Origin: Austropuccinia psidii
Taxonomy: Eukaryota; Basidiomycota; Pucciniomycetes; Pucciniales; Sphaerophragmiaceae
Length of the DNA: 64,000 nt
Assembly: GCA_023105745.1 (NCBI GenBank)
Contig: JALGQZ010000005.1
Span: 67,039,019-67,103,018 of the forward strand
Reading direction: 5' to 3'
Shown: in pieces, positions 21,804-49,789 of the stretch
Layout of the letters: each line of letters begins with the position of its first letter
Numbering within the stretch: the first letter of the stretch is position 1
The notes under the pieces: generated by a model
Told to the model about the DNA's origin: nothing
Database searches by the model: none
What the model saw: only the letters and a program-made list of their open reading frames with translations
Position numbers and translations under genes: made by a program

Positions 21804-21997
21804 ACAATAAATTTATGTATAAAACTAATGTAAAACAAAAACCAGAATAGCAGGTTAAGCCCACTGAAAAGAAATCAGAACATAAATAAACCTCAATTGC
21901 TCATGTTGAAGATTGGTCAAATTGGAAACCACCTACTGTTTCCTCAGCCAATGACCTCTTTGAATCACATATTGGACTAAGACAGAGAAAACAAAGG

Positions 21998-23227
21998 TTG
22001 GAAAGACAATCCCAAAATCAAGAACCAAAGAATAAAGCCAAAAGTCCAGGAACTTACATTGAAGAAGAAAAGGAAGAAGAAAGAGTCAAAATTCCTACCA
22101 AATTCCAAAATTCAAATATTCCAAAACCAGACCAACCTGAGGAGGAAATTGAAAATATTGCCAATAAGAATGAAGATGAAGAAATTTCTAAAGAAGAAAA
22201 AAAGTTCAGAAAACCTCAAAAGAAACAAGTTGAAACTAAATTGGAAATTAACAAAATTATCAAGAAAATTATGCAACAAAAGATCAACCTCACCATTGAA
22301 GAAATCTTGAGGATGTCACCAAATTTTGTCCATAAATTACAGGAATTATCAGAAGAAGACAAGGAAAGAATGAAATCCCTCAACTCAATGGATCTTCAAG
22401 AAAGACTATTAACATTTGGTTTCAAAGAAACACCAAAGCCCAAGATTCATTATGCCTGTCCTTTGGGGTTTATGAAGATCTTCATTGGAAAAGAAGAATA
22501 TCCTATCAAAGAATTAGCGGACACTGGTGCAGACCTCAACATTATACCAGAAGAAATAGCAATCAAAGCCTCAATCACAACAATAAATCTTAACATGAAC
22601 CTTAGGGGAATTGGAGGCCATACTACTTCATTGGTTGCACTATCAGAATTCACTCCAATCATTTTGGCTTCAGGTGAAGAAGTTCAAATTCACTTCTTCA
22701 TTGCAAAAGGATCTGTCCATACAGTACTTGGAAGACCCTTCCTGGCAGACAACAAAATTAGGCTCAAGGTTTCTCACAAGCAAGGTGAAATACTAAGATA
22801 TCAAGAGCCTGATGAAAGAAGATTATGCATGCCAATATGAAAACCTCAAGCACTTGGATGGCAAACTGGTCCACCTAGAGGAATGGATTTAAGCAAAATG
22901 GCAAAATTGGTCAGAAATACACCAGGAAAGAAATTTCAAAATGAAAAAGGTGACAATACCATTATCAAGTTGACCCAGAAGACCCAAGATTTATCCATAT
23001 CTCCAAAAAGGGATGAAATTGGCCAAGATTTACAAAACCACAAATGGCCAAACAACCTCAAAAGACAAATTGAAGAATAAATATCTGAAGATGAATTACC
23101 CAACATAATTTACAATCCAATTGATAATAATGAAGAAATCGTCCAGATTTTGTTGAATGGAAATTATAAAATAAATGGCAATCCTTTCAAAACTAAACCC
23201 AAAAGGAAGAAAGTAAGATTTAGTTAA
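21998..23227 (+). pseudogene. D1 retropepsin and downstream linker
   Basis: An open frame of 280 codons (21998-22840) starts with a long charged, low-complexity region, then helices (TIEEILRMSPNFVHKLQELS), then the protease at about 22440-22800. Its parts are HYACPLGFMKIFIGKEEYPI, ELADTGADLNIIPEE with the catalytic Asp-Thr-Gly, and VHTVLGRPFLADN as the conserved hydrophobic-Gly strand. The same frame continues past stops at 22838, 23078 and 23224 through GWQTGPPRGMDLSKMAKLV. D2 has the same order (52406-52969, GWHTGPPRGMEL), so this linker is an ancestral part of the polyprotein. RT does not follow; it lies about 20 kb further on. Confidence 0.85.
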
Positions 23228-28664: not shown

Positions 28665-28672
28665 TATAAAAA

Positions 28673-28930
28673 GGCCTCAGTATGGCTATAAACTGCTGGT
28701 TTTAAGTTTTCTATCTTGCATTTTTTATGCTAATTTTATTTTTTATTCTTTTAAGTAGGGCTTAAAAAATAAATAAGCCTCATCAAGGATTTAAACTAAT
28801 GGCTTCTTTTATTTCTATTCATTTTTTATTTTTATCTTTCATGACTGATTTTATTGGAAACTTTTGATTGCTACCAGGGTTTGAAAAAAATTAATAATAT
28901 GTCCTCAGCAAGAAATTAAACTGCTAAATA
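28673..28930 (+). repeat. Structured motif array of D1, first block (3 copies)
   Basis: Copies start at 28673 (GGCCTCAGTATGGCTATAAA, then CTGCTGG), 28777 and 28901. Each has the pattern GYCCT, a variable arm, GRC, two or three bases, TAAAC, then the complement of the variable arm. In the first copy GCC pairs with GGC, and CAGTA pairs with TGCTG with one wobble. The array continues at 39437 once G1 and A are removed. Confidence 0.8.
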
Positions 28931-29484
28931 TTACATTTAATTTGATTTTTGATAATTGACTCATACTGAAATAATTGATTTGAAATCCTACAGGTCTTCA
29001 ATATACAAAAAAAAGAATAAAAAAAAGATAAGCTGTCACAGGGGCTCTTCTAAATGAAGAGGGCCTGGCCCTCAGTGGACAGACTTACTTATGGAGGGCT
29101 CAGAATAAATACTCAATTGATAAGAGTAATGAAATGAGAGAATAAATTCCTAATCATAAAATAATAAGCATTAAAAGATATGAGAGAAAAAACAAAAGCA
29201 ATAATAAAGAGCCAACCACAAATAATCCTGTATCACTGTTTCAACCTGTTCAGAGAAGAGAAAAGGATTAATAAAGGATATGGCCACCAGGACTCTACTG
29301 AACAGGTGAGGGGAGGCAAAGACTAACTTAATAGCTAATACGATAATATTTCTTTAATAAGAAATAGAATAATATTAAATAATAAATCCAATATTTCAAT
29401 TTACTGGGGGAAAAGCCCCCAAGTGGGTGAAAGGGGGCTGGTATATTTGAAAAAGTGCCAGCCTGGAGGTTGAGTGTTGAGAAA

Positions 29485-30922
29485 TGTCAGCCTGTGACTC
29501 AAAACAAGAGCACAAGCATGACAGCCAAAATACCATAAACCAATGGTATAGCCAAAATACCACCAAAACATGGAACTGCGCCAAATCAGCTCAAAAGGTA
29601 TCAAAAGAAAGAGGAAACTCACTTTTTTCTTAAAATATAAGTCCCATCACCATAGGACAAGAAATAACAAAGTTATTCCTGCTCAAAGTTATTGCTGAGC
29701 ATAAACCTTAATTTTCACCTCTCATCTAAAATCTAGAAGGAGAAACTTAACCCCATCAAATGGGTATTCAAAATTAAGCTCTAAGCCAGGGCTATCTAAT
29801 GGTGCTAGCAAAACTGAGCTAGCACCAGTATTCCTTGAGTTATGGTCAAATTCAGACCAAATAAGGGTGAACAAAACATTCACCTCTCATCTAACCTTTA
29901 CAGTTTTAGTGTGAGATACCTAAAGTGGGGTCTTTTTGGAAAGAGCACAATCAGGGCTATCTGATGGTTCTATCCATTTCCTCATAGCTCAACTACAACA
30001 GAAGTTATTGGCCAAACAAGCTTAATACAGCTTTTGCCCAGACCACGCCAATGTACAAAAATACTTGTACATGGGATACCTTTGTCATATTTAATGATAA
30101 CCATGTCAAGTTAGGTACCATTGTGTAAAGCTCATACAGAGCTATTCAATAAACCAACTTTGAGCTTGATATCTCAAAAACTGACAGAGCTATGACCATT
30201 TTAAGGTCAAAATCCCACCTGCTGTCAGATACAGCCTTACCATGGGATAATATCCCATAACCATGAATATGAGCTGTCAAATAGACAAAGAAGCATGTTT
30301 TTACTTCAATACCTCATATGTCAGTCAATACTGGGGTCCCATACAGGTTCTGTACAGCATTCTACGTGTCATACACATCAGAATCAGGCTGTGAGGTCCC
30401 CAGATGAAAATTTTCACCCTGTATTGGTGAAAACCGCCCAGATGTGGTTTCAAAACCACATCTGAGCCAAATACAGGGTATACAGGCTGTTTGCAAACCA
30501 CAAGCCTGTCATAGAGAGTGAAAAATCTTCACTTCCTCTACGTGGAAAGGTCTAGCAGCCTTTCCACCTCAATTTCAGGATAAAAGGAGGGCTTTTCACA
30601 GCCAAAATCCTTTCCTTATCCTGCTCTTGAATACCCTACGTAGTAAACTGTCAAAAACAGTTTTACTCTTGGGTAATAAACAGGTATAATTATATATTTA
30701 ATTATTGTAACTCTTATTATAGTAACCCAACTGGTAAGATTGCACCCTGGGTTCTCAATAGCGCTCACCACCACTATTCTTCAATAGTAGAACCCTTTAA
30801 ATATATTACAAATCATCTTTTAAATCAAAAACCCTTATTTTGAATCAATTTTCTACGTGTCACAGTCATAATTCTAGTTGTAAATACTCTTATTACCACT
30901 TCAATATAGACTCAGCCTGACA
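29485..30922 (+). repeat. 5' LTR of element A
   Basis: 1,438 bp, TGTCAGCCTGTGACTC to CTCAGCCTGACA, colinear without length change with 37716-39153. Differences are mainly transitions, several at CpG sites (for example ACGTGTC against ACGCGTC, CTACGTAG against CTATGTAG). Contains inverted stretches such as AGATGTGGTTTCAAAACCAC near 30431-30450. Confidence 0.97.
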
Positions 30923-30925
30923 TTT

Positions 30926-30940
30926 TGGGGGCCTGGCCGT
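30926..30940 (+). other. Candidate primer-binding site of element A
   Basis: TGGGGGCCTGGCCGT, 3 nt after the LTR; almost the same as in element B (6311-6325). The shared primer site implies the same tRNA primer for both families. Confidence 0.65.
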
Positions 30941-31451
30941 GTTTTAAATCTTTTTTTTGGACCTTATAAGTAAGTCTTTTCTTTCTTTATGACTTATTAA
31001 CCAGTGTTTTATCTTTTTTAGGCGTAATTTTTCTATTTAAATATATATTTCATATATATTTATCCTTTTTTACATATATACTCATATTATAAGAGTATTT
31101 TTCACGTGGCTGATACCCACTGAATATAACTATTTTTGGCGTGTTTTGTATATAAAAACACATAAGCCATCAATAAGTCCTGTATTCTTGACTGAATAAG
31201 GACACCTCTGACTGAAAAACCATCAGTTGAGGCGTGGATTAAGTGTATTGTTAACTCAATAACACTTATACAAAACCACTTGTACAGAATACACTTGAAA
31301 ACCACAAGTGTATCTGTGGGATACTGGCACACAAACAGTGTGACAGGGTACCAAGAGCTGTAATTTTGACGTGGAATTGTTGATTCAATTACACTGTCAT
31401 TATACAGGGCACATTGTAGTAACATACAAGCCCAGAGGCCAATCTTAGACG

Positions 31452-31516
31452 TGCAAAACCAGCATTTTTAAGAAGTCTTAACTGACATAAGTCCTCCCTT
31501 TTCTGCCTTGATTTCA
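31452..31516 (+). promoter_or_regulatory. 3' splice signal in the element A leader
   Basis: CTTAACTGACATAAG branch-site-like sequence is followed by a pyrimidine-rich tract and GATTTCAG ending at 31516, after which coding-like sequence starts (VEENYIPLETQSQANTP). A matching acceptor lies ahead of gag in element B. The donor was not identified. Confidence 0.45.
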
Positions 31517-31865
31517 GTGGAAGAAAATTACATCCCACTTGAGACCCAGTCACAGGCCAACACACCAATGACACCCTCAGAACCAGAGGGCAGCAAGGGC
31601 AAAGGAAAGAGGCACAGTGAAGGTCTCATCACAGGCAAGAAGTGGAGACCAATAGCCACTCAGAGAAGTAGAAAACCACAAAACTCTGCATCCATACAAG
31701 GTAAACCAACCTTAACCACTTGTACAGGAAAGATTACAATTATTAACCCAGTTGTAACTTCCAAAGGCAAACTGCCCAAGTCAGCAGACAGTAAATTTGT
31801 ACAAGGCACAGTCAAAGGTAAATACCCTAAGAACACAAAGTTTTTGACTGCTTGCAAACACTGAT

Positions 31866-33386
31866 ATGTCCCCTGTATACCTCAGAGACCTTGGCTTCCA
31901 AAGGAACCAGCCAGAGGATAGAGGAGGATTGTCCAGAACCAGAAGACCTGAAAGAGGACACCCTGGACACAGTGGTGGATGGAAAAACAATGAGGGAGAT
32001 AATATCAACCTTGCCATTCACACTCCAATTAAACAGAAACCTCAAACCAGAGGACTGGAAGGATATGGAACAAGTTCTTCAGATCCACCAACTCCTCAAA
32101 GATTTATTTCAATGGAGCATGGACAACAAGAGGTTCAACCTAGCAACTCACCGGGCAGAACTGGGATCAAGTTGCCAGAAGATCTGTCTCAAAGAGATAG
32201 ACTTCAAAGACCTTATGGTAATCACCAAAGGTTGGAATCCTACCAGGCAGCACAGACTCCTGGAGGCAAGGGCACAGAGGATAAGGGAGAATCAAGCCAC
32301 TATCCTAGCTATAGAAGAACAGTTGACCCAGACAGGGCCTACTCAGATTCCTTCAGGTTCACAAGGAGCAGGCCAAATCAACTCTCCAGTGGCTTCACAC
32401 CATTCAGAAACCAGCAGATCAGTGTCCAAGAGTCACCATTCTTCACAATTCCAGGAAGTTTCCAGGAGAAGACAAGGAAACAAGGGCAAGAACAAAACCT
32501 CCTTCAACCAGAGGAGGAAAGAGTCAGACCCCATGATCCAGAAGCTGTTGGATTTGGTAAAGGAAGTACACAAGAACCAGAAGTAGTTGTAAACCACTCT
32601 AGAATCAGTAGTCCTAGTAATAGAAACATTACCCCCACTAAGACTGAAAATAACATTGTCACATCTGAGAGTAACATCAACAGTGATACACTGTTGTTAC
32701 AAGTGTCCCAATATGCTGAACAATCTGCAAAGCAATTTGCAGAAATTAAAGCTATCCAAGAGAGGATGAGACAAACTCAAGCCTCCTTGGAACAAATAGT
32801 TAAGAATCTTCAAAAAGGATATGCTCAACTGAGCAAAGCCTCTGAATAATCCAACAAAAGACTGAACCAAGTCTTTGAAGAACAACACCACAGCACAAGG
32901 GACAGGGAGTGTCTGGATCAAGACATTAACAAATTGTTTAATGCCTACCATAGCTTAAAGCCCCAACCACAAGGCCAAGCTATGGAGAATCCATATCAAC
33001 CAGATGACATCAAACCAGATGCCATGATGTTGAATAAGGCAAGATCTCCATCACAATACCAGGATGGAGATGGCATGTCTTATTCAGAGAAGGAAGCCTT
33101 GAAACAGCTTCCTGAGGCCTCAAACTGGCCCAAATTGTCTGGGTCAGGAGAATATGATCATATGGAACTCATAGATTATATTGATGGACTCTTCATTGAT
33201 GTACCCAGCATACCAGATTACTGGATTACTGCTAGACTGAATACTGCATTTAAAGGTCATGCAAGTATATGGTACACAGAAATGAAAGAAATCCATGGCA
33301 GAAGAAACTGGCCATGGTGGAAGAGTCAAATAATCCAAAAGTACAGTAATGGAACTTGGATATGGCAAAAGACCATGTCATTTTAA
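31866..33386 (+). pseudogene. Element A gag, capsid part
   Basis: In the same frame as pol. The N-terminal part (31866-32849, 327 codons) is hydrophilic and disordered (PEDLSQRDRLQRPYGNH, then SGFTPFRNQQISVQESPFF), ending in a predicted coiled coil (SQYAEQSAKQFAEIKAIQER). After a TAA at 32847-32849 it continues (NKRLNQVFEEQHHSTRD) into the capsid: WPKLSGSGEYDHMELIDYID near 33127-33186, and FKGHASIWYTEMKEIHGRR. A second TAA lies at 33384-33386, after which the frame continues into the next ORF. Two stops and no frameshift suggest recent inactivation. Capsid assembly is the expected role. Confidence 0.88.
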
Positions 33387-33401
33387 AATGACAAATACTC
33401 T

Positions 33402-35999
33402 GTGGACAAAGATCCATATGAGTGGTGTCTCAGACAGTCTAAAAGACTTAAAGCCATTGATCCTCAGATGAACATCCAGATGAGGAATCACAAACTTCTG
33501 ACACAACTGCCAGGAGAATTAGAGCATGCAGTGAAATGCAGATGCAACCAAAATTGCACTCTAGATGACATAGCCAATACCTTACAAGACATAAGGAAGA
33601 GGACAAATATAGGGAAATTAACCCCATATAGAAGCAGTAGTTTCAAGGAGAAACAACCTTTCAGGGTGGAGTTTAAAGACAAACCCAGAGAAAGAGTGGC
33701 AGAAGTGGCAAAGAAGAAGAATTCTTGTCACAATTGTGGTTCAACAGACCACTATGCCAACAACTGTCCAAAAGAAAAGAAAAAAGTCTATGCTATAGAA
33801 AAAGTCCCTGAAGAAGAACCTCCAACAGAGGATTCTGAATCAGACTCTATGGGAGATGCCATCAGAGAATCATCTGATGATGATCAAGACCCAAGAGAGG
33901 AATTTCTAGTGGAATACCAAGAGGAAACCCCATTGGAAATCCAGGATATACAGTCGGAAGCAGGCATGCCACAGGACACTGCCAACAAGAACTTGTGCAA
34001 ACACACACAAGATGCACAAACATTCCTGGTTACACCAACCAAAGGAGTGGCATATATACATGGAACAGCCACAAAAATGACTGTATGTATTGACAATGCT
34101 CAGCACCCACTGATCATTGACAGTGGAGCACATTGCTCCATAGTGGCCAGAAACTATCTGGATAACCACTTCCCAAACTGGGAAAAGCAGCTCTTGCCCA
34201 CTAAGGCAAGGAACTTCAAAAGTGCATCAGGGAAGATGACTTCCATTGGGACAATTATCAAAGAGATAATTATACCCCACAGGAAGGGTAATATCAGACT
34301 CAACCCAGAGTTTGTAGTGCTTGAAGATGCCCACATCCAAGGGTTTTTACTGGGAACAGATTACCAGAGGATGTATGGCATAGATATTTACAACAGTAAA
34401 AACAGGCACATTACCATTGGTACCAACAAGGAAAAGAAATTTTCACTTGATATATACCACATATCTTCACAGGATCCACTAGAAGAACTGTTGAAGGAAT
34501 TCAAGGAGGGACATTTTAGCACTACCCTCACCAGTAAACAAAAACTAAGTTTGATGAAGATGCTGAGGAAGAAAAGACCAGCATTTGCCATTGGTGAAGA
34601 ACCACTAGGCAAGATTAAAGGCCATGATATAGAACTATATCTGGATGTGGAAAGACCTTATCCACCCATTCTGAGGAGACCTCCTTATCCAGCAAGTCTG
34701 GAAACCAGGAAAGAAATTGAAAAACACATCAATGAACTCCTGGACATGGATGTCATCAGCAAGATGGGACATAATGAAATAGTGGAAATCACCACTCCTG
34801 TCCTAATCACCTGGCATGATGGCAAGTCTAGATTGTGTGGAGACTTCAGAGATCTGAATAACTATACAAAAGCAGACAGGTACCCTATAACCAGGATACC
34901 TCATGCCTTGGATAAGCTGGCCAAAGCCAAATACATAACCAAGATGGATTGTATGAAAGGCTTCCACCAAAATGGAGTTAAACCAAACTCCATGAAGTTG
35001 CTCAGAATAATATGCCATATGGGCATATATGAGTACACCAGGATGCCATTTGACATCAAGAATGCACCAGCCCACTTCCAAAGGATGATGGACACCATAT
35101 TTCAAGAAGAAATAATGGAAGGTTGGATGGTAGTATATATTGATGATATCATTATATACTCAGAGACATGGGAAGACCATGTACAATACATAGACAGAGT
35201 GCTAAGTAAATGTACACCCATCAATTTGAAAATTTCACTTAAAAAGGGTAATTTTGGCCAACAAGAGCTACTAGCTCTAGGACACAAAGTCTCAGGCCTT
35301 AGTCTGGCAATTGACCAGAACAAAGTAGCAGCAGTACTGCAAAAGCAAGTACCAAAGAACATCAAAGAGATGCAATCCTTCCTTGGATTTGCTAGCTACT
35401 ATAGAAACCACATCAAAACCTTTGCCCACATAACTAGTAGTTTATACAAGTTATGCTCAAAGGATGTAGTTTTTGAAATAACCAAGGAAAGGAGGGATGC
35501 ATATGAGAGGATCAAATATGAACTCACAAATGCACCTATTCTCATCTTTCCTGACTTTGAACTACCATTCAAGTTATATATAGATGCAGCATGCAGCCAA
35601 GGCTTGGGAGCAGCCCTTCACCAAAGACAAATTGTGGATGGTGAACCAAGAGAAGGTGTAATATGTTACATCTCCAGGCAACTGAAAGATTCAGAAGCCA
35701 GGTATGGGGCCACCCAGACAGAATGTCTATGTCTAGTCTGGGCTCTAGAAAAACTCCATTATTATTTGGAGGGTGCAGTCTTTGAGGTCTACACAGACTG
35801 CACAGCCTTGAAGTCTTTACTAAACATGAAGACTACTAATAGACACATGCTGAGATGGCAAATAGCCATCCAGGAGTATAGAGGGAACATGACCATCATA
35901 TACAAGGAAGGTAAAAGCCATACCAATGCAGAGTCAAAAGCAATCCAGCTTATGACCCTGAAGTTGCTGCAAAAATTCCTATCCATTTTATGGAAATAA
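33402..35999 (+). CDS. Element A Gag end, protease, RT and RNase H polyprotein
   Basis: 865 codons open throughout. Order: end of capsid; zinc knuckle [14 protein letters not shown] (about 33728-33769); acidic linker; retropepsin [12 protein letters not shown] with Asp-Ser-Gly at 34119-34127 and [18 protein letters not shown] with [38 protein letters not shown] and an intact YIDD box at 35136-35147; thumb [13 protein letters not shown]; RNase [38 protein letters not shown] and [12 protein letters not shown]. The end ([19 protein letters not shown]) departs from the expected RNase H terminus, which marks a frameshift near 35930; integrase continues in another frame. Catalytic residues of PR, RT and RNase H look intact. 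Confidence 0.93.
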
Positions 36000-37479
36000 A
36001 TAGGAAGAAGAACTTCAGATTCTCTGAATGGGAACCAGGGAGTGGTACCCTTGACAGTGGAAACACTGAATCAGAAGGGATAGAAACCCCCATACTGGGA
36101 ATAAGTTCCTCAGAACTGCACAATGAATTTTTCAATGCAGTGCTGAAATCATATGCTAAACACAAACAGTGTAGCATACTACTCCAACTCCTTCAACAAA
36201 AATACAGGAGCCCAGAACTGAAAACCCAGCTGGAGGAACCCTGGTTGAGGGCCTATAAGGACAATAAATTCTTCCTTATAGATGGCCTGATTTATCACAG
36301 AGAAAAGCACACCAGTGCACTCACAGTAATAGACAGAGACCACATCTCTTTAATCCTGCAGGAATGCCATGACTGCCCCTACATGGGACACATGAGTGAG
36401 GACAGGACTAAAGAGAGGGTAGCAAGCACAGCTTGGTGGCCCAAGTGGGAGCAAGAGTTGAGTGAATACATCAACACTTGTGAAAGATGCCAAAAGGCAA
36501 ATAGAAAACATGGGAAGAAATATGGGTTGCTTCAACACATAGAAGAACCCAAACACCCATGGGAAACCATCAACATGGACTGGGTCACAGGACTTGTCCC
36601 AGGAGGCAAAGAAAACTACAATGCCTGCTTAATCATAGTTGATAGGTTCAGCAAGAGCATGAGATGTCTACCATGCCATAAAGGGACACAGCCATGGACA
36701 CTGCTCTGTTATTTTGGAATAACATCATATCCACCTGTGGAGTCCCTAAGATCATAATTAGTGACAGGGACCCAAAATTCACATCTGAATTTTGGACCAA
36801 TTTATATGACATGCTTGGCACCAAGCTTGCTTTTTCCACAGCTTACCATCCACAAACAGATGGCCTAGCTGAGAGGATGATCCAAACAATGGAGGACATC
36901 CTCAGGAGGTTCTGTGCCTATGGCATGGAATACAAGGACCATGAGGGATACACCCATGATTGGGTCACCCTCTTACCAGCAGTCCAACTGGCTTATAATA
37001 CAAGCCAGCACTCTACCACAGGAAAAACACCTGCACTGGTAGAGAAAGGGTGGAATCCCCTGTTACCTGTGGATCACTTGAAGAAAAATCTTCTGACCAT
37101 CCACCCTACAGCCAAAGACTTCCATGATATGTGGAAGAAAGCCTGTGATACCGCTGCCAAATGCATAGCTGAGGCCAAAGAGTATAGCAAGCAGAGGTGG
37201 GACAAATCACATATGGAACCTAACTTCAAGGAAGGGGACCAAGTGTTAGTGTCTACACTGAGCTTTAACAATCGCAAAGGACCCAAGAAGATGAGAGACT
37301 CATTTGTAGGGCCCTTCACTATCATTAAGTTGATAGGGAAGAATGCAGTAGAGGTCAAGATCACTGAGGAGGTTTCTAGGAAACACCCAGTCTTTCCAGT
37401 AAGCCTGGTCAAACCATACTTCCAAACAGAGGAGGATAAATCCCCTCCAGGAAGAAAAACATCACTCCACCAGAAATAG
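35990..37479 (+). pseudogene. Element A integrase, split by frameshifts
   Basis: Two overlapping frames. 35990-36757 holds the N-terminal extension, the HHCC zinc domain (ECHDCPYMGHMSEDRTKER, then CERCQKAN) and the first half of the core with NMDWVTGLVPGG and IVDRFSKSM. 36694-37479 takes over with [41 protein letters not shown] and the C-terminal GPF part ([44 protein letters not shown]). The Asp, Asp, Glu catalytic residues are all present but need a frame change near 36680. Another shift near 37440 separates the chromodomain. Confidence 0.9.
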
Positions 37480-37691
37480 TGGAAGTAGAAGACTCTCCTG
37501 GACCTGTGAGTAAAATCATCAGGGCCAGAAAAATCAGACTTAATGGGAAGGATCAGAGACAATATCTAGTCAGATTCAAGAACCTAACAGCTGACAAAGA
37601 CAAATGGTTGGCAGAGGATGCCATACCAGATGGGAACCTTCATCTAAGGAGATTCAGAGCCTCTAGGAGGACTGAACAGTCTCATCAATGA
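37440..37691 (+). CDS. Element A chromodomain
   Basis: Read in the frame of 37479-37691: [52 protein letters not shown]. This is the chromodomain-like C-terminus of chromovirus integrases, thought in the family to guide integration to heterochromatin by reading histone marks. Only part of the aromatic cage can be judged by eye (Tyr and Trp present). It fits the clustering of these elements in old transposon DNA. Separated from the integrase by a frameshift in this copy. Confidence 0.8.
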
Positions 37692-37702
37692 TGAGCCTTT
37701 TT

Positions 37703-37715
37703 TAGAGGGAGGGTA
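37703..37715 (+). promoter_or_regulatory. Polypurine tract of element A
   Basis: TAGAGGGAGGGTA just before the 3' LTR at 37716, preceded by a T run; expected primer for plus-strand synthesis. Confidence 0.65.
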
Positions 37716-39153
37716 TGTCAGCCTGTGACTCAAAACCAGAGCACAAGCATGACAGCCAAAATACCATAAACCAATGGTATAGCCAAAATACCACCAAAAC
37801 ATGGAGCTGAGCCAAATCATCTCAAAAGGTATCAAAAGAAAGAGGAAACTCACCTCTTTCTTAAAATATAAGTCCCATCACCATAGGACAAGAAATAACA
37901 AAGTTATTCCTGCTCAAAGTTATTGCTGAGCATAAACCTTAATTTTCACCTCTCATCTAAAATCTAGAAGGAGAGGCTTAACCCCATCAAATGGGTATTC
38001 AAAATGAAGCTCTGAGTCAGGGCTATCTAATGGTGCTATCCAAACTGAGCTGGAACCAGTATTACTTGAGTTATGGTCAAATTCAGACCAAATAAGGGTG
38101 AACAAAACATTCACCTCTCATCTAACTTTTACAGTTTTAGTGTGAGATACCTAAAGTGGGTTATTTTTGGAAAGAGCACAATCAGGGCTATCTGATGGTG
38201 CCATCCATTTCCTCATAGCTCAACTACAACAGAAGTTATTGGCCAAACAAGCTTAATACAGCTTTTGCCCAGACCACGCCAATGTACAAAAATACTTGTA
38301 CATGGGATAACTTTGTCATATTTAATGATAACCATGTCAAGTTAGGTACCATTGTGTAGAGCTCATACAGAGCTATTCAATGAACCAACGTTGAGCTTGA
38401 TATCTCAAAAACTGACAGAGCTATGACCATTTTAAGGTCAAAATCCCACCTGCTGTCAGATACAGCCTTACCATGGGATAATATCCCATAACCACAAATA
38501 TGAGGTGTCAAATAGACAAAGAAGCATGTTTTTACTTCAATACCTCATATTTCAGTCAATACTGGGGTCCCATACAGGTTCTGTACAGCATTCTACGCGT
38601 CATACACGTCAGAATCAGGCTGTGAGGTCCCCAGATGAAAATTTTCACCCTGTATTGGTGAAAACCGCCCAGATGTGGTTTCAAAACCACATCTGAGCCA
38701 AATACAGGGTATACAGGCTGTTTGCAAACCACAAGCCTGTCATAGAGAGTGAAAAATCTTCACTTCCTCTACGTGGAAAGGTCTAGCAGCCTTTCCACCT
38801 CAGTTTCAGGATAAAAGGAGGGCTTTTCACAGCCAAAAGCCTTTCCTCATCCTGCTCTTGAATACCCTATGTAGTAAACTGTCAAAAACAGCTTTACTCT
38901 TGGGTAATAAACAGGTATAATTATATATTTAATTATTGTAACTCTTATTATAGTAACCCAACTGGTAAGATTGCACCCTGGGTTCTCAATAGCGCTCACC
39001 ACCACTATTCTTCAATAGTAGAACCCTTTAAATATATTACAAATCATCTTTTAAATCAAAAACCCTTATTTTTAATCAATTTTCTACGTGTCACAGTCAT
39101 AATTCTAGCTGTAAATACTCTTATTACCACTTCAATATAGACTCAGCCTGACA
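37716..39153 (+). repeat. 3' LTR of element A
   Basis: 1,438 bp, same ends as the 5' LTR; followed by the AGAAA duplication at 39154-39158. Confidence 0.97.
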
Positions 39154-39436
39154 AGAAACCATGATTGTATGATTGAGAAACCTGTATTTGAGATGTGAAA
39201 CTGTATTGGTGTATCCAATACAGATATTTCAATCAATACAGGTATTTGCACCTGTATTGAAGGAAGGCCTGTATTTGGTGAATCCTGTATTTGGGTGTTG
39301 CCTGTATTGAGCTGTATTGAGGTTTGGAACTGGATTTGGTGAATCTTCCATGAACCCCCTTGCTGATTAGGTGTTGGAAGATTTTCCATTAGTAATGAGT
39401 CATAATGCCCTGCCTGTCTCCATGGCTGTGACATAA

Positions 39437-40996
39437 GCCCTCATCAAGGCTTTAAACTGATGGGCTTAAAAAAATAATAATAAAACAAAATAATAAAATC
39501 CCTGGGCAAGGCTTTAAACTGCTTTGTTTCTTTTTTTAATCTTATGATTTTTTTTTGTTTTTTTTAATTACTGACAAACTCTTTGTTTGAATTTTTCAGG
39601 GCCATAAATAAAAAAGGGAAGAACATTAAGAAGCCCTCATCAAGGCTTTAAGCTTATGGTTTCTTTTATTTTCTATTTTACTTTATAATTATATTGGACT
39701 CACATTTCCTATTCTCAATTTCTACAGGGCTTGAAATTTCTTCTTTATATATGAATCAATATATATATATATATATATATGTAAGAAAAAAACTCAATAT
39801 ATATATATAAATAACAGAATGACATTACAATAAATTGAATAAAGGGCTACAAATTTCAAAAAAAATATCCCTGAGCAAGGCATTAAACTGCTCAATTTTA
39901 TATTATTTTATCACTTTATTGCCTTCATTATTTTACTGACAATTTTATTTTATTTTTTACAGCTTATATCAACAAATATATATAAAATAAAAAAAGAAAG
40001 ATCAATATGTATAGCAGAATGAGAGTTAAAAAAGAACATGTCCTCAGCAAGACATTAAACTGCTGGAATTTCCTTTCATTTTCTCCTTCATAGTACATGA
40101 AGCTGACATATTTTATTTTGATGTGCTACAGGGCTGCAAAGAACAATACATGCCCTGAGCAAGGCAATAAACTGGTCAATTCTATTTTTTTATGTCTATC
40201 AATTAAATTCTTAATTATTGAGTTTTCTGATATTATATTTTTTCAGTATATTTCAAAACAAAATGAAAGAAACAAAACAAAAGCAGTATATATATATATA
40301 TATATATATCTCATGAATTAAGGAGGTTGGAATGAACTGAGAAGGAGCCCTCAGAAAGGCTTTAAGATGCTCAATTTTATTTTTTATCATTTATTAAATT
40401 TCTTATTTTAACTGACATATTACTTTACAGTTTTTTTATATTAATCAATATATATAACAGAATGAGGGTTGAAAATGAAAAGGCCCTAAGCAAGGCTTTA
40501 AACTGCTATTTTATTGTTTATGCTTTTTTATGTTGAAGAATAACTATACTAACATATTTAGTTTGGCTTCTACAGGGATTCAACATTAAAAAAAACACTT
40601 TCATGATTTTATAAACTTGAGAAAATACTTTTGAAATGAAGATAAGTCCTCAATAAGACTATAAACTGTTGAATTCAATTTACAGCTTGGCTTTGAAGAT
40701 AAATCAAATGTCATGAAAACCAAAAGTATCAAACAAAAGTGCCTGGACACAGGATAAGGTCCTTCGCAAGACCATAAACTGCCCACCAAAATTATTAACA
40801 GGGACTCAAAAAAAAACAATCAACCAATGGTCCTTGGCAAGACCATAAACTGCCCACCACTAAAAATTCTCAACAAGGACTCAAAATGACAAACAATCAA
40901 CCAATGGTCCTGGGCAAGACCATAAACTGCCTATTTAAAGAAATCAAGAAAATATTAAAGGAGGATAAGTCCTAGGCAAGACTATAAACTACCTAA
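39437..40996 (+). repeat. Structured motif array of D1, main block (13 copies)
   Basis: Copies start at 39437, 39499, 39633, 39868, 40040, 40152, 40347, 40482, 40646, 40758, 40829, 40906 and 40969. Core: GGYCCT, arm, GRC, 2-3 nt, TAAAC, arm complement. Examples of pairing arms: CATCA/TGATG (39437 copy), GAGCA/TGCTC (39868), CAGCA/TGCTG (40040), CAATA/TGTTG (40646), GGCA/TGCC (40829). Outer arms covary as GGTC/GACC, GTC/GAC or GCC/GGC. Between copies lie T-rich tracts, then TACAGGG-like boxes, then A-rich tracts. No ORF. All copies point the same way as D1. Simple (AT)n tracts lie at 39759-39781 and 40290-40310. Confidence 0.85.
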
Positions 40997-42088
40997 GGTT
41001 TCATTTCTTTTTTTACTTTCTGATTTTATGTAATTATAAACAAGTATTAGAAAGATGTATTTACTTGAACCTTTTGAACATACTTTTTTATTTCTTTTTT
41101 AAATTTATTTATTCATTTTCACTAAGAATTAGAGGCATATCCCATTCATTATCTCAAGAATATCATATTTATTTATTGTCTTTATTATACTTCTCCTACT
41201 ATTACAACAAGAGCCATTAAACTGGCTTAAGTTTTCAACTCAAAAATAATAATTAAAAAAACTCTACACCAACTAATTGGTTGAAACAATCAATTCATTC
41301 AAAATATTTCTTGGATTACAAGAAAGTGATGGGAACTTGTTTGAAAGAAAGAAGAATTTGTGCCATGAAGGCATTAATTGAGCTCTGAAGGAGTTATTTA
41401 TATTAAAAACTCATAAATTGATGACATAATCTGGGAAATTTACATATTAATAACACCTCAATGTGCTATTTTTTGCCAAAAGGACTGTAAAAAGCCCCCC
41501 AAAAGCAAACAAGAGTTTTTAAAACTGTACAAATATTTGTTTTTAACTGTTTAAATTCTTTTAACAACTCAAATGCATTTATGGGTAACAGAAAATCTGA
41601 ACCATAAAGGTGATGGACTTGAAATAAAGTCTGAGTCACAATGATGATTCCAAAAATTGAGAGTTGTGGCATCATAAGGGTCACTATATGAATAAAGGAC
41701 TCAAATTATGATCATTCAATTATGTCATATTAATTATAAATACTCTCAAGAGCACCAATTGTTTCTAAATGGCACAAATTACCACCTTTAACCAAAGAGT
41801 TCCATGATCTTGATTGTGATTCAGGATTATTTCCTTTGGAGTGTCATTTTTACTCAGATATATCAGTTTTTAGGTTATTTTATACTTAAAATCTAAGGAA
41901 AAAAAATATTCACTCCACTTTAAAAAAAGAAATTATGTGAGTTTACTGTATTATTATTTATTATTATCAAAATCACTATCAAAAATAAGGGGTGGGTAAG
42001 CTTATTTCTTACACTATCCCTTATAGTGAAAGTTTTGGGGGAATTAGAACATATCCTCTTCCAAATTTGAAAACCAACTCAAGATTTT
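40997..42088. other. AT-rich non-coding stretch of D1
   Basis: No credible ORF, motif copy, LTR or RNA gene recognised. The only notable sequence is the purine-rich tract that ends the stretch (next entry). Confidence 0.5.
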
Positions 42089-42104
42089 TAAATGGAGAGG
42101 GGGG
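42089..42104 (+). promoter_or_regulatory. Second, internal polypurine tract of D1
   Basis: TAAATGGAGAGGGGGG matches 15 of 16 bases of the tract before the D1 3' LTR (TAAATGGAGAGGGGGA, 47810-47825) and the D2 LTR (56423-56438). It is followed by CCCTTATCC, not by an LTR start, so it is not a broken LTR junction as far as I can see. It lies ~1.1 kb before the RT-containing pol segment. A central plus-strand primer, as in lentiviruses and some yeast elements, is the natural interpretation. Confidence 0.55.
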
Positions 42105-42268
42105 CCCTTATCCAAAAAAATATTATTGTAAAGAATATCAATAAATCAATTTTAAAATTAATTTTAAATCATCTTATTATTATAATTTTTCATTTTTCAT
42201 TTTTAATTTCATTTTTCTTTAACAGGAATACTTTAGAAATACAGGAGAACCAAAGGAAGTAAATTATT

Positions 42269-42481
42269 TTGAAAAAATATCAATATAATGAGGAAACATT
42301 ATATCACATACCAATTATCACAATACTGGAAGAAAAAAGAAGATTGTTTATAAAGAAAAGCAGGAGTTCCTTATTGATTGACCTTTGGAAAACACCAGAC
42401 CTTGGAAATTTCATTGATTCTGGATTGAAACACAATTGGAATTCAAGAATCACTGGCCAGGATTTATGGACTGAAGGATGA
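42269..42481 (+). other. Short open stretch upstream of D1 pol (doubtful)
   Basis: 70 codons (MKKYQYNEETLYHIPII...ITGQDLWTEG), acidic and basic residues mixed, no motif. The sequence goes on as LTGLILDSGLNQHDGPIG after a stop. It lies between the internal polypurine tract and the pol ORF and may be part of a decayed accessory gene. Weak support. Confidence 0.25.
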
Positions 42482-42596
42482 CTCACTGGATTAATTCTTG
42501 ACTCAGGACTCAATCAACATGATGGACCAATAGGATGATGTAAAACACTCAACACAAATTTCCCTTGGGATTTTAAAGAATCTTGAAGACTCAAGA

Positions 42597-43093
42597 GGTC
42601 CTCAGCATGACACTAAACTGCTTCCCCTGTAGACTTGGGCAGGGAAAATTATAAAAAAATAAAAATAACAGCCAAGAAGCTGCAGGGGATTTTCATAGTC
42701 AGGAGAAGTGCTGAAGGACCATTTTTTTTCCTTAGAATGACAATAAAATTCTCCCTTTGCGTAACAGGAACAAGGGGTTTCACAGGTGCTTACAATTATC
42801 AAATTGGCCAGAATGAGCAAAGTGGAGTCCCAAGCCATCAATTAAGACAAGAAAATTCTTTATCAAGAAATAAAACAACCAGCAGAATCTTGCATCAAGT
42901 GGGAATAATGAAGATTGAAGGATAAAACAAGATTCAAGTGGAATCCAAAATCAAGCCCAAAGGAGCTCAAGAATAAAGATAAGCCCTTGAATGAACCAGG
43001 AGGTCCTTGCATGAGTTAAACTGCAGGACTTGTATACCTAACATACAGAGGTTACACACCTAGTTGTAGGTCCTGTATGACCTTAAACTAAAT
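42597..43093 (+). repeat. Structured motif array of D1, last block (3 copies)
   Basis: Copies start at 42597 (AGCA/TGCT arms), 43012 (TGCA/TGCA) and 43069 (outer arms GGTC/GACC kept, inner arms weak). They are far apart and end ~100 bp before the pol start codon at 43196. Confidence 0.7.
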
Positions 43094-43195
43094 TTTTTAT
43101 CAAAGAAAGAAGAAGAATTGTGAAGAACTCAATATTTCAGGACACTAGAAAATTCTTAGAAATCATTAAAAAAGAAACAAAATAACTAATTGAAG

Positions 43196-43507: not shown

Positions 43508-44927
43508 TGTCAGGGTGACTCTATGATATAGCTTTACAATTACAAATAAAAGCTATAACTATGAGTGTGACACGAAAATAAAGATGAGAATTAAGATAAT
43601 AGATGGTTCAAAGGGCTATAATAAATGAATCTAGTGATGGTGAGTACTGTTGATAGCCCTGGGTGCAGTGTTTATCTGTTGGTTTACAATAATAAACCCT
43701 ACAATAATTATAATTTATAATTATACCTGTTAAATTCTGAGAGTACCACTTCTTTTGAGAAGTTAAACCACGTAATAATATGAAGAAAAGGATGCTGGAT
43801 TAGCTTCCTGGTGGGGAAAAGCCTCCTTTTATCTTGTTCTGGGATAGTGGGAGGTTTTTTACCTCTGCATATGACCACAGAGTGAAAATTTTCACTACTG
43901 TGGGCTGGTTTGTGGCTCTATACTCTCAATAAAGACTGTTATTGGGGGGAAATGTGGTTTTAGAGCCACAAGTAGTAATTTTTACCCTATAAAGGGTGAA
44001 CGTTTTCACCAATGGAGTTTACAGGTGTGTTCTGGTGCTTCTGATACGTCAGAAGCTGTACAGAACCTGTATGGACCTCTATAATTGACTTAACTATGAG
44101 GTATTGAAGTACAATCAAGCTTCTTTGTCTGTTTGACACCTCATAATCATAATTATGGGATAGTATCCCACTGTAAGTCTGTATTGGCCAAAATGTGGGA
44201 TTTTATCCTTAAGACTGCTATAACTTGGTCATTTTTTAAGATATTGAGCTCAAAATTGGTTCATTGTGTAGCCCTGGATGTAATATACACAATGGTACCT
44301 CATTTGCGATGGTTATTATTAAATATGGCAAAGCTATGCCATATACAAGCTTTCTTGTATACATTTATGATTTGTCCAAAAACTGTATGGAACTTGTTTG
44401 CTCCATATCTTTTGTTCTAGATAGGATATGGGCAAATGAATGGCACAATCATATAGCCCTGATTGTGCTCTTTCCAACAATACCCCACTTTAGGTATCTC
44501 ACACTAAAACTGGAGAAGTTAGATGAGAGGTGAATATTTTAATCACCGTTATTTGACCTTATTTTGGTCATAACTTCTGTAATACTGGTGCTAGCTCAGT
44601 TTGGCTAGTACCATTGGATAGCCCTGACTTAGAGCTTCAATTTGAATACCCATTTGATTGGTTTAAGCCTCTGCCTCTGGATTTCAGATGAGAGGTGAAA
44701 ATTAAGGTTTATGCTAAGCAATAGCTTTGAGCAGGAATAACTTTGTTATTATTTTTCCTATGATGATGGGAATTGTATATTTTTAAAGAGGTGATTTTCC
44801 TCTTTTCTTTGATACCTTTTGAGCTAATTTGGCTCAGCTCCATGTTTTGGTGGTATCTTGGCTTTACCATTGGTTTATGGTATTTGGCTGTCATGCTTGT
44901 GCTCTGGTTTTAAGTCACAGGCTGACA
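43508..44927 (-). repeat. Solo LTR A-prime, reversed, inside D1 pol
   Basis: 1,420 bp, reverse complement of the A-family LTR (plus-strand ends TGTCAGGGTGACTC and GTCACAGGCTGACA), with the target duplication TACTC at 43503-43507 and 44928-44932. More diverged from the LTRs of A than they are from each other, so an older insertion of the family. No internal sequence. Confidence 0.95.
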
Positions 44928-44932
44928 TACTC

Positions 44933-46316
44933 AAACACTCATATGGAAAACCTTACAAGATGCCAGTAATACCTCATGAAATGTGGCAGAAGAAATCAAT
45001 TCACATTCCCAAATCAATTTTAACTCAGTTTACTGAATTAATCAGAGAAATAATCAAGACTGGACTCTATGAGCAATCCACATCAAGCTACACAAGCCCA
45101 ATATTTTGTGTGTCCAAATCAAATGGGAAACTCAGACTTGTCCATGACCTTCGAGAACTCAACAAAGTCACCATCAAGGATGCGGGCTTACCACCTCACA
45201 TTGAAGAATTTGTAGATGCATTTTCAGGAAGAGCATGCTATGGACTAGGAGGCATCATGGAGGGTATGATGAAAGAGAATTAGATGTCATTACAAGACCC
45301 CTCACCACTTTTGAAACCCCCCTTGGAAGGATGCAACTCACAAGACTACCCCAAGGAGCCACCAACTCAGTGACAGTATACCAAGCCCAAATGACCTGGA
45401 TACTTCAAGAATAAATACCAGAGAGTGTAGGAATTTATATTGATGATGGAGGAATAGAAGGACAAAGATCACTTTACAACCAAGAAACACTACCAGAAAA
45501 CCCCTCAATCAGAAGATTTATATGAGAATATGCCATAACCTTGGAAAGAGTTTTATTCAGGATTGAATAAGCAGGAATTACTATCTCAGGATCAAAGTTT
45601 GCATGCTGTTTTCCAGCTTTGGACATAGTAGGGCATGTTGTATCATTTAAAGGAAGAACAATTTCAAAACAAAAACTCAACAAAATCCAAAATTGGCAAA
45701 CACCTCTTAACAAGAAGGAAATAAGGGGATTTCTTTGACTATGTGCCTATGTAACAATGTTCATTGAAAACTTCTCACAAGCTGCATCACCACTCCGAAG
45801 GCTCACTAGAGAAGATGTTGACTGGGACTGGGATCAAACATGTGAAGAAGCTTTCCATAGGCTCAGAAGAATAGTTGAAGAAGAAATAACCCTCAAGAAA
45901 TTGGATTATGACAAAGGAGCAGGTGAAATTAAGCTAGCAGTAGACTCAAGCTACATTGCTGCAAGAGCAGTACTCACTCAAGAAGATAAAGAAGGAAAAG
46001 ACAGACCAGTATTATATGAATCAATAACTTTTTCAAAATTGGAATCAAAATACCCACAGCCCAAATTAGAACTCTGTGGAGTTGCAAGAATTCTGAAGAA
46101 GCTTCAAACAATACTTTGGGGACAAAATTTTGAATTACAGATTGATGCCAAGGCCTTAATTGAAATTATCAACACCCCTTGCTTACCCAATGCCCCCATG
46201 ACAAGACGGGTGGCTTTCATTCAGCTATTTTGCTTTGATTTGGTACACAAACAAGGGAGAGCTTTCACTATTCCAGATGGGCTATCCATAAGACCAGAAA
46301 ACTTGGAAGAAGAAGA
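44933..46316 (+). pseudogene. D1 reverse transcriptase and RNase H
   Basis: RT begins TGLYEQSTSSYTSPIFCVSK and KLRLVHDLRELNKVTIKD, then AGLPPHIEEFVDAFSGRACY. A frame change near 45255 is followed by YDERELDVITRPL and RLQLTRLPQGATNS. The catalytic box GIYIDDGG is intact at 45430-45450, after a stop at about 45412. Thumb: AGITISGSKFACC, then FLXLCAYVTMFIENFSQAAS. RNase H in the frame of 45757-46320: KLAVDSSYIAARAVLTQED, ESITFSKLESKYPQPKLELC, ELQIDAKALIEII. This RT clade differs clearly from A, B and E (no MPFG block; GG after YIDD). Confidence 0.9.
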
Positions 46317-46449
46317 TTAAGATGCACCAGAATTCGATGAAGAAGAAGATTGGATAAAGGCACACCCTGGATTTGGGGCTAAGAATGTAAATTCACTCCA
46401 TTTTTCAGGAATACAAGTACCAACCAAACAAGAAGTATTTCGGAAGAGA

Positions 46450-47825: not shown

Positions 47826-49789
47826 TGTGGTATTCCATACCATTTTTTTCACCAGGCTCAAGCTCATATTACCCCATAACAGCAGTAAATTCAGCCTACA
47901 AGCAGACTTAAACTCAAATGTTACACCAAAGGGTCAATTTTACAGCAAGAATCTGGATTTAACTCATAAAATCATGGAACAGGCACCAAAGGGCAGTGTA
48001 TGTGTTTAAATAAATTATTCAATTTCATTATGCATATGTGAAAAGCAAGTTACGTATAGCAAACTAGTTACAACAAATAAGGTACCACCCTTTAAATTAA
48101 ACACCCCACCCAGCTTTACACCCTTATATTGCCACAGGACTCATGCAGCAAGAAAAGGACACCTGCAAGAACTACAAAGAAACCTTGCATTCAACATAGA
48201 AAGTCAAATGATAAAAAGCTAAACCCCATGGAATTCCTGCAAGTCATTTACAACACAGCCACAGGAGTACCTTACCTTACATCCACAGTAACCCCACTTG
48301 AAATCTTAAAACAGAATCAGAATTATACACACCACTCATCACCTCATGAAACCCAAAGCTAGTTAAAGCAGGCTTCATGCAGTACACAATTTTGATTAAA
48401 TCTCAACCACATGACTATGTACAGCATGTTTCAAACTCAAAAATGACATCATTCCATAAAAAACTGTTAATTCATCAGTGAAAGAAATTATCAGCTGGCC
48501 TCATTTTAGAGTTCAAGAAGAAGAAAACAACATGACACCTGAATAAATTTAACAGCCACTCCTACCAAGCCTAAAAAAATGACCTATGCAAAGGAAATAC
48601 GAAGTCATCATGTGATACTACACCCACCAACAGAATATCATGTGACAGAAAAAAGGCTGTGCACAAGAAAGATCCTCAGCCAAAATTAAATTACCTCATG
48701 CATGCAAAGAAAATATAATAATATCACATCATAATTAGTTCACCAAAAGACCATCATGTGATGAATGGAGGCTGTGCAGAGAAAATATTATCACCAAACC
48801 TTAAATCACCTGGCCCATGCAAGAAAGCTTCTCACCAAAAATGGGGTCACATGATGAAATCAAGAGGAATTCAAGTAGAAAAAGACAGCTCCCATGGAGG
48901 GCCCCCTGGGCTCCCAAATGGTGTAAATAGAGGGGCTCTCTCCCCCCCAAATTTCATAATCCACCCATGCACAGTAGAGGCATAGGAATAATTCATCCCT
49001 CAACTGGGAGGTAGTCCAGAGAATCATAGTGAATTGACTTGCCCAGTAGCTAAACTCAGTGGAAGTACAGTGTTAAAGATTTCCCGGTAGCTAAGCTCAG
49101 TGGAATATAAGTATTAAAAAAAATATGATTAAATTATCCAGAACCCAAGATTAGGGTTACTACTCTATTGAAATCTTTTATCCAGTAAAATTAACACCAC
49201 TTATTCAAATCTTAAAATTACTTACCCCTTTAAAAATACAATATCAAAGAATCTTACTTCTTAAATTTAACAAATACTATTTTATCTCATTATTAAACAT
49301 TCTTAAACAAATAACAAACATTTAAGAAATTATTTTACTCTATTATAACTTTACCTTAACAAAATTACCTTTATCAACACTCATCAAATTATTCAGAACA
49401 CCTTAAAAAAACCCATCTTACAAAAGGACTTTTAACCAAGAAGAAACAACTTACTTCAATTCAACTAAAAAAGTTAAAATTAAAACAGACAAGTATTTCA
49501 TTAAATCTAAAAATTAACCAAATTACTGAAATTTCTTTTTATTACTATATATTGAATAGTTCTGATCTGAGACTTCTGAATTTTTTCTTATAAAGTTGTA
49601 AAGCCACCTACTAATTTAATTTTGGTTTGTGAGCTCCTAGGAAGATTTTGTTCAGTATTTTAGGAGGGTCAGGCAATACACCCTTGCCACCCTTGGTACA
49701 GGAGTTATTAGCGATTCAAAACTAGCTACCTGTGATTTCCCCCTCCAGGTACTGCCTCATATTAATCCCACACAATAGGAGTTCCCACA
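47826..49789 (+). repeat. 3' LTR of D1
   Basis: 1,964 bp, TGTGGTATTCC to TTCCCACA. Contains the uninterrupted site corresponding to the insertion of solo LTR C (48239-48258). It has one 41-bp repeat copy fewer than the 5' LTR, and the TATA position reads TGTAAAT. The right edge meets the minus-strand gene remnant. Confidence 0.93.

Follow-up and report, generated by a model that had tools for sequence, protein, structure and literature searches.

Introduction

H-type pseudoknots, their tandem repetition in type III antitoxins and their use as operators are already known. Here, we report a predicted 27-nt H-type pseudoknot that is repeated in arrays within a large Ty3-like long terminal repeat (LTR) element of the rust fungus Austropuccinia psidii. 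The analysis concerns a stretch of 64,000 nt (hereafter the window; GenBank assembly GCA_023105745.1, contig JALGQZ010000005.1, positions 67,039,019 to 67,103,018 of the forward strand), in which an earlier note had pointed out a repeated motif with two interleaved, covarying arms. Two things had been overlooked there: helix 2 of one element family, D1, includes the splice donor of a short intron, and phages carry the same knot.

In the gene 32 operator of bacteriophage T4, a pseudoknot of about 28 nt precedes more than 40 nt of less structured RNA, and nucleation is followed by cooperative binding of the single-stranded DNA-binding protein (SSB) (PMC535899, excerpt). The fungal knot is likewise followed by bare A-rich RNA, and three of the phage knots described below precede SSB genes, a layout resembling that of the operator (PMC535899, excerpt). 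Unlike the operator, the fungal knots form arrays in an LTR element, where no SSB gene was seen. The loop and helix lengths of the operator also differ from those of the present knot.

Two retroelement systems invite comparison. In the packaging signal of human immunodeficiency virus type 1 (HIV-1), the major splice donor lies in a long-range fold that needs residues just downstream of it and favours unspliced RNA (PMC5192399, excerpt). The D1 splice donors would similarly be held in a predicted fold, but the HIV-1 signal is described in that excerpt as one tandem three-way junction in the 5' leader, whereas here there is an array of H-type knots. The musD RNA transport element contains a pseudoknot needed for the export of LTR-retrotransposon RNA; as far as the excerpted source describes it, musD is a single larger fold with a kissing interaction and no array (PMC5767303, excerpt). 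The type III toxin–antitoxin RNAs ToxI and CptI are tandem repeats in which each repeat is an H-type pseudoknot; their repeats precede a toxin gene (PMC5086642, excerpt), while here the arms vary between units. No toxin gene (ToxN, CptN or TenpN) was found among the ten window open reading frames (ORFs) scanned. A type III antitoxin array was rejected since the repeats are not near-identical and their arms vary widely. Introner-like elements of fungi comprise many related introns within one genome. The present copies differ from them in that those examined sit in LTR-element arrays and the conserved part spans the exon.

The open PMC literature, which includes a survey of 15 fungal RNA motifs (PMC5640933, excerpt), yielded no account of the knot or of arrays like these, although this argues only weakly for their being undescribed. 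An RNA class with these fixed loops was not found described, nor were its LTR-element arrays, its position on splice donors or its occurrence in phages, and we regard these as new; counting every H-type knot as one kind would make the class just a variant.

Results

Architecture and covariation of the knot

The motif reads NNYC-CU-NNNNN-W-GRNN-N-UAAAC-NNNNN. Helix 1 has 4 bp (columns 1–4 with 13–16) and loop 1 is CU; helix 2 has 4–5 bp (columns 7–11 with 23–27), the helices are joined by a single A or U, and loop 3 is N-UAAAC. To judge from its sequence, the motif is a single RNA pseudoknot class, and the pseudoknot, as predicted, is almost certainly genuine. Its assignment to the H type rests on two interleaved helices that both covary, at 1–16 and 3–14 in helix 1 and at 8–26, 9–25 and, weakly, 7–27 in helix 2.

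The first collection was made with the loop sequence only, the arms being left free, and held 232 copies (109 distinct). Paired positions in this set numbered 385 for helix 1, against 323.5 ± 5.3 with partners shuffled, and 434 for helix 2, against 384.3 ± 5.7. A gapless alignment was then scored with the structure ((((..[[[[[.))))......]]]]] and comprised 150 of 157 distinct 27-nt copies. Here, 86.4% of cells pair, compared with 77.0 ± 0.6% with shuffled partners and only 20–41% when the partners are slid by 1–3 columns; cells changed on both sides number 178, against 71.5 ± 15.2 after shuffling. The exchanges are spread over several pairs: AU 76, UA 21, GC 18 and GU 11 at 1–16; CG 77 and UA 66 at 3–14; AU 114 and GC 21 at 8–26; GC 115, AU 15 and UA 10 at 9–25; and CG 103 and UG 19 at 10–24. 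Pair 7–27 is weak, being unpaired in 90 of the 150 copies. G–U-type cells exceed A–C-type cells by 57 to 25, as read on the sense strand. Both the loop-only set and a larger column-scored set of 276 units require near-consensus loops and miss copies with altered ones.

The signal also emerges without any structural guidance. When all 325 column pairs of 179 distinct copies (4 of 183 rows, outlying, were removed beforehand) were ranked by G with average product correction (APC), the top five were 9–25, 3–14, 1–16, 8–26 and 7–27, and the same five lead the ranking with clustering at 95%. The claim of interleaved covarying helices thus stands: it extends to hundreds of copies, is recovered blind to structure, and recurs with other arms in a second element family and in phage contigs. 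The proposal that the motif exceeds chance is likewise borne out, as CTNNGCAAGNCNNTAAACTGC matches exactly 3,676 times in the genome of 1,015,390,075 bases and its reversed pattern not at all. The earlier note had also considered that the arm variants might trace to a few copied units; many do, so that this objection partly holds, but such an origin alone does not account for compensations at several pairs and in sequences that are not visibly related.

No Rfam 15 family scores above its gathering score in the window. A likeness to the U6 small nuclear RNA, the hammerhead, hepatitis delta virus and twister ribozymes or the fluoride riboswitch was considered and, judged by Rfam, set aside, the Rfam matches lying far below gathering scores.

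Copies in the window

The window holds 19 D1 copies and four D2-family copies (those at 55440, 55516, 55595 and 55673 were used for D2), all on the plus strand:

28672..28698, +, pseudoknot of intron type; donor GTATGG at 28680, intron 28680-28758
28775..28801, +, pseudoknot with T at +1; TCAAGG at 28783, YAG end 28877
28900..28926, +, pseudoknot; GCAAGA at 28908
39436..39462, +, pseudoknot with T at +1 (39444); TCAAGG, arms CATCA/TGATG
39498..39524, +, pseudoknot and candidate intron 39506-39599; GCAAGG..CTGAC..CAG
39632..39658, +, pseudoknot with T at +1 (39640); TCAAGG
39867..39893, +, pseudoknot and candidate intron 39875-39962; GCAAGG..CTGAC..CAG, arm 1 only 2 bp
40039..40065, +, pseudoknot and candidate intron 40047-40131; among the unspliced counterparts of junction class J1 (see below)
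40151..40177, +, pseudoknot and candidate intron 40159-40246
40346..40372, +, pseudoknot and candidate intron 40354-40430; GAAAGG at the donor place, arm 2 only 3 bp
40482..40508, +, pseudoknot and candidate intron 40490-40575; GCAAGG..CTAAC..CAG
40645..40671, +, pseudoknot with A at +1 (40653); ATAAGA, arms CAATA/TGTTG, strongly conserved, branch site and acceptor not detected
40758..40784, +, regular non-intron pseudoknot; arm 2 only 3 bp
40829..40855, +, regular non-intron pseudoknot
40906..40932, +, regular non-intron pseudoknot
40968..40994, +, final pseudoknot in the main array; 16 of 17 aligned rows have arm 2' TACCT
42597..42623, +, outlying pseudoknot
43002..43028, +, outlying pseudoknot, arm 2 shortened
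43069..43095, +, outlying pseudoknot, arm 2 shortened; last before the likely pol start
55440..55466, +, D2-family pseudoknot; arms GACA/TGTC
55516..55542, +, D2-family pseudoknot; arms GAAA/TTTC
55595..55621, +, D2-family pseudoknot; arm 2 with one mismatch
55673..55699, +, D2-family copy; arm 2 only 3/5

All 19 D1 copies listed in the earlier note were recovered, on the strand given there and with starts within 2 nt, except that the copy placed at 43012 actually starts at 43002. Its estimates by eye were lower. At least 3 bp of arm 1 had been counted in 18 of the 23 D1 and D2 copies, and the fixed register gives at least 3 of 4 bp in 21; for arm 2 with at least 4 bp, about 14 became 18. Copies 43002 and 43069 have a shortened arm 2 and fall outside the fixed register, and copies 28673 and 28777 have one C fewer before helix 2. 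The copies at 28673–28901 and at 39437–43069 do belong to one array, split by an inserted Ty3-like element that is flanked by AGAAA.

Candidate introns that start inside the knot

In many D1 units, the knot is followed by a T-rich stretch, CTRAY and YAG; measured from where the knot starts, the median distance is 94 nt. These units read as U2-type introns of about 75–95 nt, with donor, branch site and acceptor at the usual distances, and a branch site with YAG is present in 84 of 198 distinct GCA/GTA units. The intron 5' end, GCAAG or GTATG, coincides with knot columns 9–13, and the D1 introns thus very probably begin within the predicted pseudoknot, starting in the 5' arm of helix 2 and running into helix 1'. 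Helix 2 takes up donor positions +1 to +3 and helix 1 takes up +5; once folded, the knot would cover nearly all of the U1 site.

The borders come from comparison of the arrays, in which some copies miss exactly the span from two bases after CCT to YAG. We read seven junction classes as putative exact intron losses. Among the loci fetched from the genome, J1 occurs in 14 and J2 in 10, and J3, J4, J6, J7 and J8 occur in one locus each; J1 and J4 stand in tandem in locus L021. Unspliced counterparts were found for J1 (L032 has both forms), J3 (L018 against L003 and L008), J6 (L035 against L004) and, less closely, J4; for J2, J7 and J8 there was none in the fetched loci at the threshold used. A search of these loci for GG.[TC][AT].AA after RYCCT gave ten matches at a distance of 2 nt, against 0, 0, 1, 3 and 0 at 0, 1, 3, 4 and 5 nt; seven of the ten spliced-type matches belong to J2 and one looks unrelated, while the 115 matches at 6 nt are the knot itself. 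The 37 genome matches of GYCCTNNGGCTATAAA divide into 13 GTCCTCA, 1 GCCCTCA, 2 GCCCTTA, 2 others and 19 GTCCTGT, the last of which resemble another repeat, and one of the 15 fetched places (L022) falls outside any array. A BLAST search with joined 26+26-nt exon flanks found four junction sites at the true borders and up to 113 with shifted borders, a spread due to the A-richness of the exons. U12-type introns with a donor at GTCCT were ruled out, as the loss copies put the donor two bases after CCT.

Judging from these borders, splicing could leave a short hairpin and abolish helix 2. Exon starts such as GGCTATAAA (L032, L003, L004, L035 and others) look like helix 1' together with loop 3, which would fit an intron that had interrupted a knot-like repeat. 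At the J3 unit (L003, L010, L012, L004), about 61–65 bp after CACAG|GTATG are missing in some copies; the gap may mark a recursive splice site or may be a simple deletion between AG repeats.

Pairing in units with and without a usable donor

The 276 distinct units allow pairing to be set against the donor sequence. Positions +1 to +3 read GCA in 175 units, GTA in 23, TCA in 21, ACA in 21, GAA in 19, ATA in 12 and otherwise in 5. Arm 2 retains at least 4 bp in 165 of 175 GCA, 22 of 23 GTA, 21 of 21 TCA, 20 of 21 ACA and 12 of 12 ATA units, and in 5 of 19 GAA units; a change at +1 is nearly always compensated, whereas a C-to-A change at +2 mostly is not. Branch site and acceptor are present in 1 of 21 ACA, 0 of 12 ATA and 11 of 21 TCA units. 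An alignment of 21 copies of the unit that has A at +1 places the knot among its best conserved stretches. Since compensated pairing persists in intronless knots and in those whose +1 is T or A, the knot is quite probably selected for itself, apart from splicing.

Genome-wide copies and the D2 family

Matches number thousands genome-wide and lie on the coding strand of two related Ty3-like LTR families: D1, with pol, and D2, apparently without it. A pattern with helix 1 fixed and helix 2 free hits 4,011 genome places, against 0 for the reversed pattern, and among the 100 matches listed most are D2-like. These listed matches contain 51 distinct strings, both D1-like and D2-like. Permitting one bulge, 231 of their 255 arm 2 cells are paired, compared with 206.2 ± 3.9 after shuffling; without a bulge, the values are 192 and 179.3 ± 3.4.

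The D2 locus L036 has nine knots at a spacing of 72–87 nt, followed by a stem-loop, a polypurine tract (PPT) and the LTR. By eye, no branch site with acceptor was seen between the knots of this array, and no ORF or pol was found between the array and the LTR; the PPT is the same as in the D1 family. Of 14 spacers from D2 arrays and the non-intron part of D1, all A-rich, none folds below -3 kcal/mol. Downstream of the window's D2 copy lies a tandem repeat (57360-57569, 82 bp × 2.6).

The same knot in phages

The knot occurs in many phage contigs (L037–L095 and L191–L310; for example L092:3330-3930 and L270:1340-1730), singly between genes or in tandem. The loci were picked for holding the pattern, and the isolated cyanophage S-EIVl for a gene like that after the L067 knot. 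In IMG/VR, the helix-1-fixed pattern with arm 2' unspecified gave 61 matches, of which 42 have arm 2 with at least 4 of 5 pairs; in 84,980 prokaryote genomes, 16 of its 95 matches are paired. When each flanking sequence is allowed a single entry, the paired fractions are 33/46 and 16/92. With helix 1 as UGUC/GACA, at least 120 stretches match; among the matches listed, 109 of 127 pair, with 47 distinct arm pairs, or 95 of 110 when only distinct ones are counted. A control with helix 1 mispaired returned 14 matches, equivalent to four distinct sequences, of which one pairs through a T run. A few perfect knots also occur in bacterial contigs (L105, L117, L130, L142 and L183, within L096–L190), perhaps as prophage.

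The tandem array of L092 comprises about 14 knots with helix 1 as CGUC/GACG, UGUC/GACA, GCUC/GAGC or UCUC/GAGA and arm 2 of up to 7 bp. S-EIVl has five minus-strand knots, each between annotated genes, against 0.25 expected from shuffles on both strands, and one additional plus-strand match whose loops differ. Position statistics were taken over 164 distinct knots, L092 being excluded. The gap from stop codon to knot is 5 nt in 37 of 114 knots, the knot lies 20–30 nt before an ATG in 71 of 116, 21 of 78 leaders carry a Shine–Dalgarno (SD)-like word, and ORFs of at least 100 aa contain 21 of the 164 knots. A recoding pseudoknot (frameshift or readthrough) was dismissed, as no steady open frame runs through the phage knots and the fungal copies fall outside long ORFs. 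Compared with Rfam, 12 phage loci gave nothing above gathering score but two tRNAs.

Ten downstream proteins, hand-picked from 122 rows (of which 45 were listed), were compared with PHROGs: two are SSBs, one a DNA polymerase, three scaffolds, one a head protease, one the major head protein and one of unknown function, and one had no match. Among the first ten proteins beside phage knots, four match (two of unknown function, an Hsp20 and a Gp2.5-like SSB upstream of its knot). Knots stand 20–21 nt before SSB genes in three phages, S-EIVl (KJ410740.1 29657-30466), L075:1789-2559 and L085:6220-7032, the last two genes being phrog_44. A knot and a bare tract before an SSB gene, the gene 32-type layout, were seen in phages only, at these three loci, and the SSB-preceding knots are possibly gene 32-like operators, as predicted from this layout. 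Before gp32 of S-CRM01, arm 2 has only 3 bp.

The host element

The window is crowded with Ty3-like LTR elements. To judge from the features below, the array belongs to a large Ty3-like LTR element and lies between its protease region and pol. In our reading, an LTR with its end near 19912 is followed by the gag and protease ORFs, a further ORF (24881-25369), the array, pol and an LTR-like segment:

21890..22840, +, host-element protease ORF; RVP, as high as 97% to proteins of A. psidii MF-1
29485..39153, +, nested Ty3-like LTR element that splits the array; LTRs 29484-30922 and 37715-39153, 97.4% identical, 5-bp duplication AGAAA
41983..42048, +, conserved stem-loop 3' of the array; D2-family counterpart L036:3896-3962, whose arms differ yet pair
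44828..46320, +, reverse transcriptase/RNase H region of host pol; Pfam match (RNase H) confined to 45739-46320
47827..49784, +, host-element 3' LTR-like segment; resembles 15961-16384 and 18307-19912

An inverted LTR-like copy (43632-44941) sits within the pol of the window, whose likely start is near 43199; in fetched loci the pol halves are adjacent. In 20 loci fetched from contig 1, each with 8 to 26 units (outlying ones included), the 1.4-kb stretch 3' of the array is present in 18, and pol was found in 14, always on the same strand as the array. The stem-loop and its D2 counterpart are possibly a second structured RNA element; another fold scores best in four of ten listed D1 loci, and the window's own D2 copy has lost the stem-loop.

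Discussion

The best explanation as a whole, which joins the knot class, the D1 introns inside the knot and a role in Gag coating or packaging, is plausible but falls short of probable. Packaging or Gag nucleation as the selected role is put forward tentatively, by analogy with the gene 32 operator. Each knot with its bare spacer would be a nucleation site from which Gag or nucleocapsid, the presumed LTR-element counterpart of the phage SSB, coats the element RNA cooperatively, and would in this way mark the RNA for packaging. In D1, the fold would also hide the splice donors and splicing would destroy helix 2, leaving the full mark on unspliced RNA only, in the manner of the HIV-1 signal. A cis-acting mark is favoured by the array being common to the pol-bearing family and to a D2 locus with the same PPT and no pol between array and LTR, by its sharing the strand of pol in the 14 of 20 loci where pol was found, and by the unfolded spacers. 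A wider proposal, which we consider doubtful, is that a portable knot class with fixed loops and free arms serves two domains of life. Tailed phages would use it between cistrons, ahead of SSB, polymerase, scaffold and capsid genes; rust LTR elements, with as many as about 26 units per array, would use it likewise to nucleate a cooperative RNA-binding protein. In one fungal family it would also be the intron 5' end, the splicing state being written into the packaging mark.

Several observations weigh against parts of this account. With clustering at 90%, pair 7–27 leaves the top five of the structure-blind ranking and the unpredicted 7–26 enters. With clustering at 85% and the four outlying rows kept (an effective 12.7 sequences), predicted pairs hold only ranks 1 and 2, with 1–16 ninth and 2–15 twelfth. 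Many arm variants descend from few ancestral units, and independent compensations are far fewer than copies. Pairing is no worse in units whose +1 is T or A than in those with usable donors, and donor masking is therefore unlikely to be the main pressure, although it may be a real effect. Gag binding to the knot is itself proposed by analogy. In LTR elements, the known packaging signals are placed towards the 5' end rather than between protease and pol or by the 3' LTR. Finally, phage knots often stand directly before start codons, which points to translation rather than packaging.

Among the other explanations, a nuclear export or stability element is the one that survives best, though we think it unlikely. 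The array would recruit export factors for the long unspliced RNA, as do the constitutive transport elements of simple retroviruses or musD. Export elements can lie just before the PPT and 3' LTR, and the array of the D2 locus stands directly before both; the pseudoknot-containing transport element of musD provides a precedent (PMC5767303, excerpt). The knot, however, is also found in phages, whose hosts have no nucleus.

An action on ribosomes, by which the array would help pol to start or block ribosomes or exonucleases, appears improbable. It draws on the phage stop-to-knot and knot-to-ATG distances and on the SSB, polymerase, scaffold, protease and capsid genes (ten proteins scanned) that follow the phage knots. 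Nevertheless, even the fungal knot nearest pol is separated from the likely start by about 100 nt and most are kilobases distant, the phage knots lack a steady open frame, and the D2 locus has no ORF between array and LTR.

To the same degree, we find it hard to credit that the knot serves donor masking only, preventing the element RNA from being spliced by concealing the donors within it. Helix 2 does include donor positions -2 to +3 and helix 1 those from +5 onward, GCA units outnumber GTA units by 175:23 (68:16 for those with branch site and acceptor), and the fetched arrays hold many retained intron units and few loss junctions. However, compensated knots are kept in units with T or A at +1, in units without an acceptor and in the D2 family, and the unspliced counterpart of J1 has full arms, yet is spliced out elsewhere.

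That there is no selection at all, the pairing coming from short inverted repeats perfected by template switching or conversion between arms and copied from few ancestral units, is highly improbable: the copies are indeed paralogous and clustered, with the low effective number given above under strong weighting, but conversion does not explain the common loops CU and UAAAC, covariation heads the unguided ranking, phages hold the same loops with other arms (paired in 33/46 and, among the matches listed, 95/110 distinct matches), and the helix-1-mispaired control has a single paired sequence, through a T run, among four. Compensated changes at several different pairs, and in sequences without visible kinship, make common descent alone insufficient for the pairing.

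The knot would add to the catalogue an RNA class that is apparently absent from Rfam, overlooked perhaps through its 27-nt size and its pseudoknotting. Replication and capsid genes follow it in phages. For the rust, it offers a possible explanation of how very large, intron-bearing LTR elements stay whole across their RNA stage, and the passage of intact LTR elements through that stage bears on the growth of a 1-Gb fungal genome.

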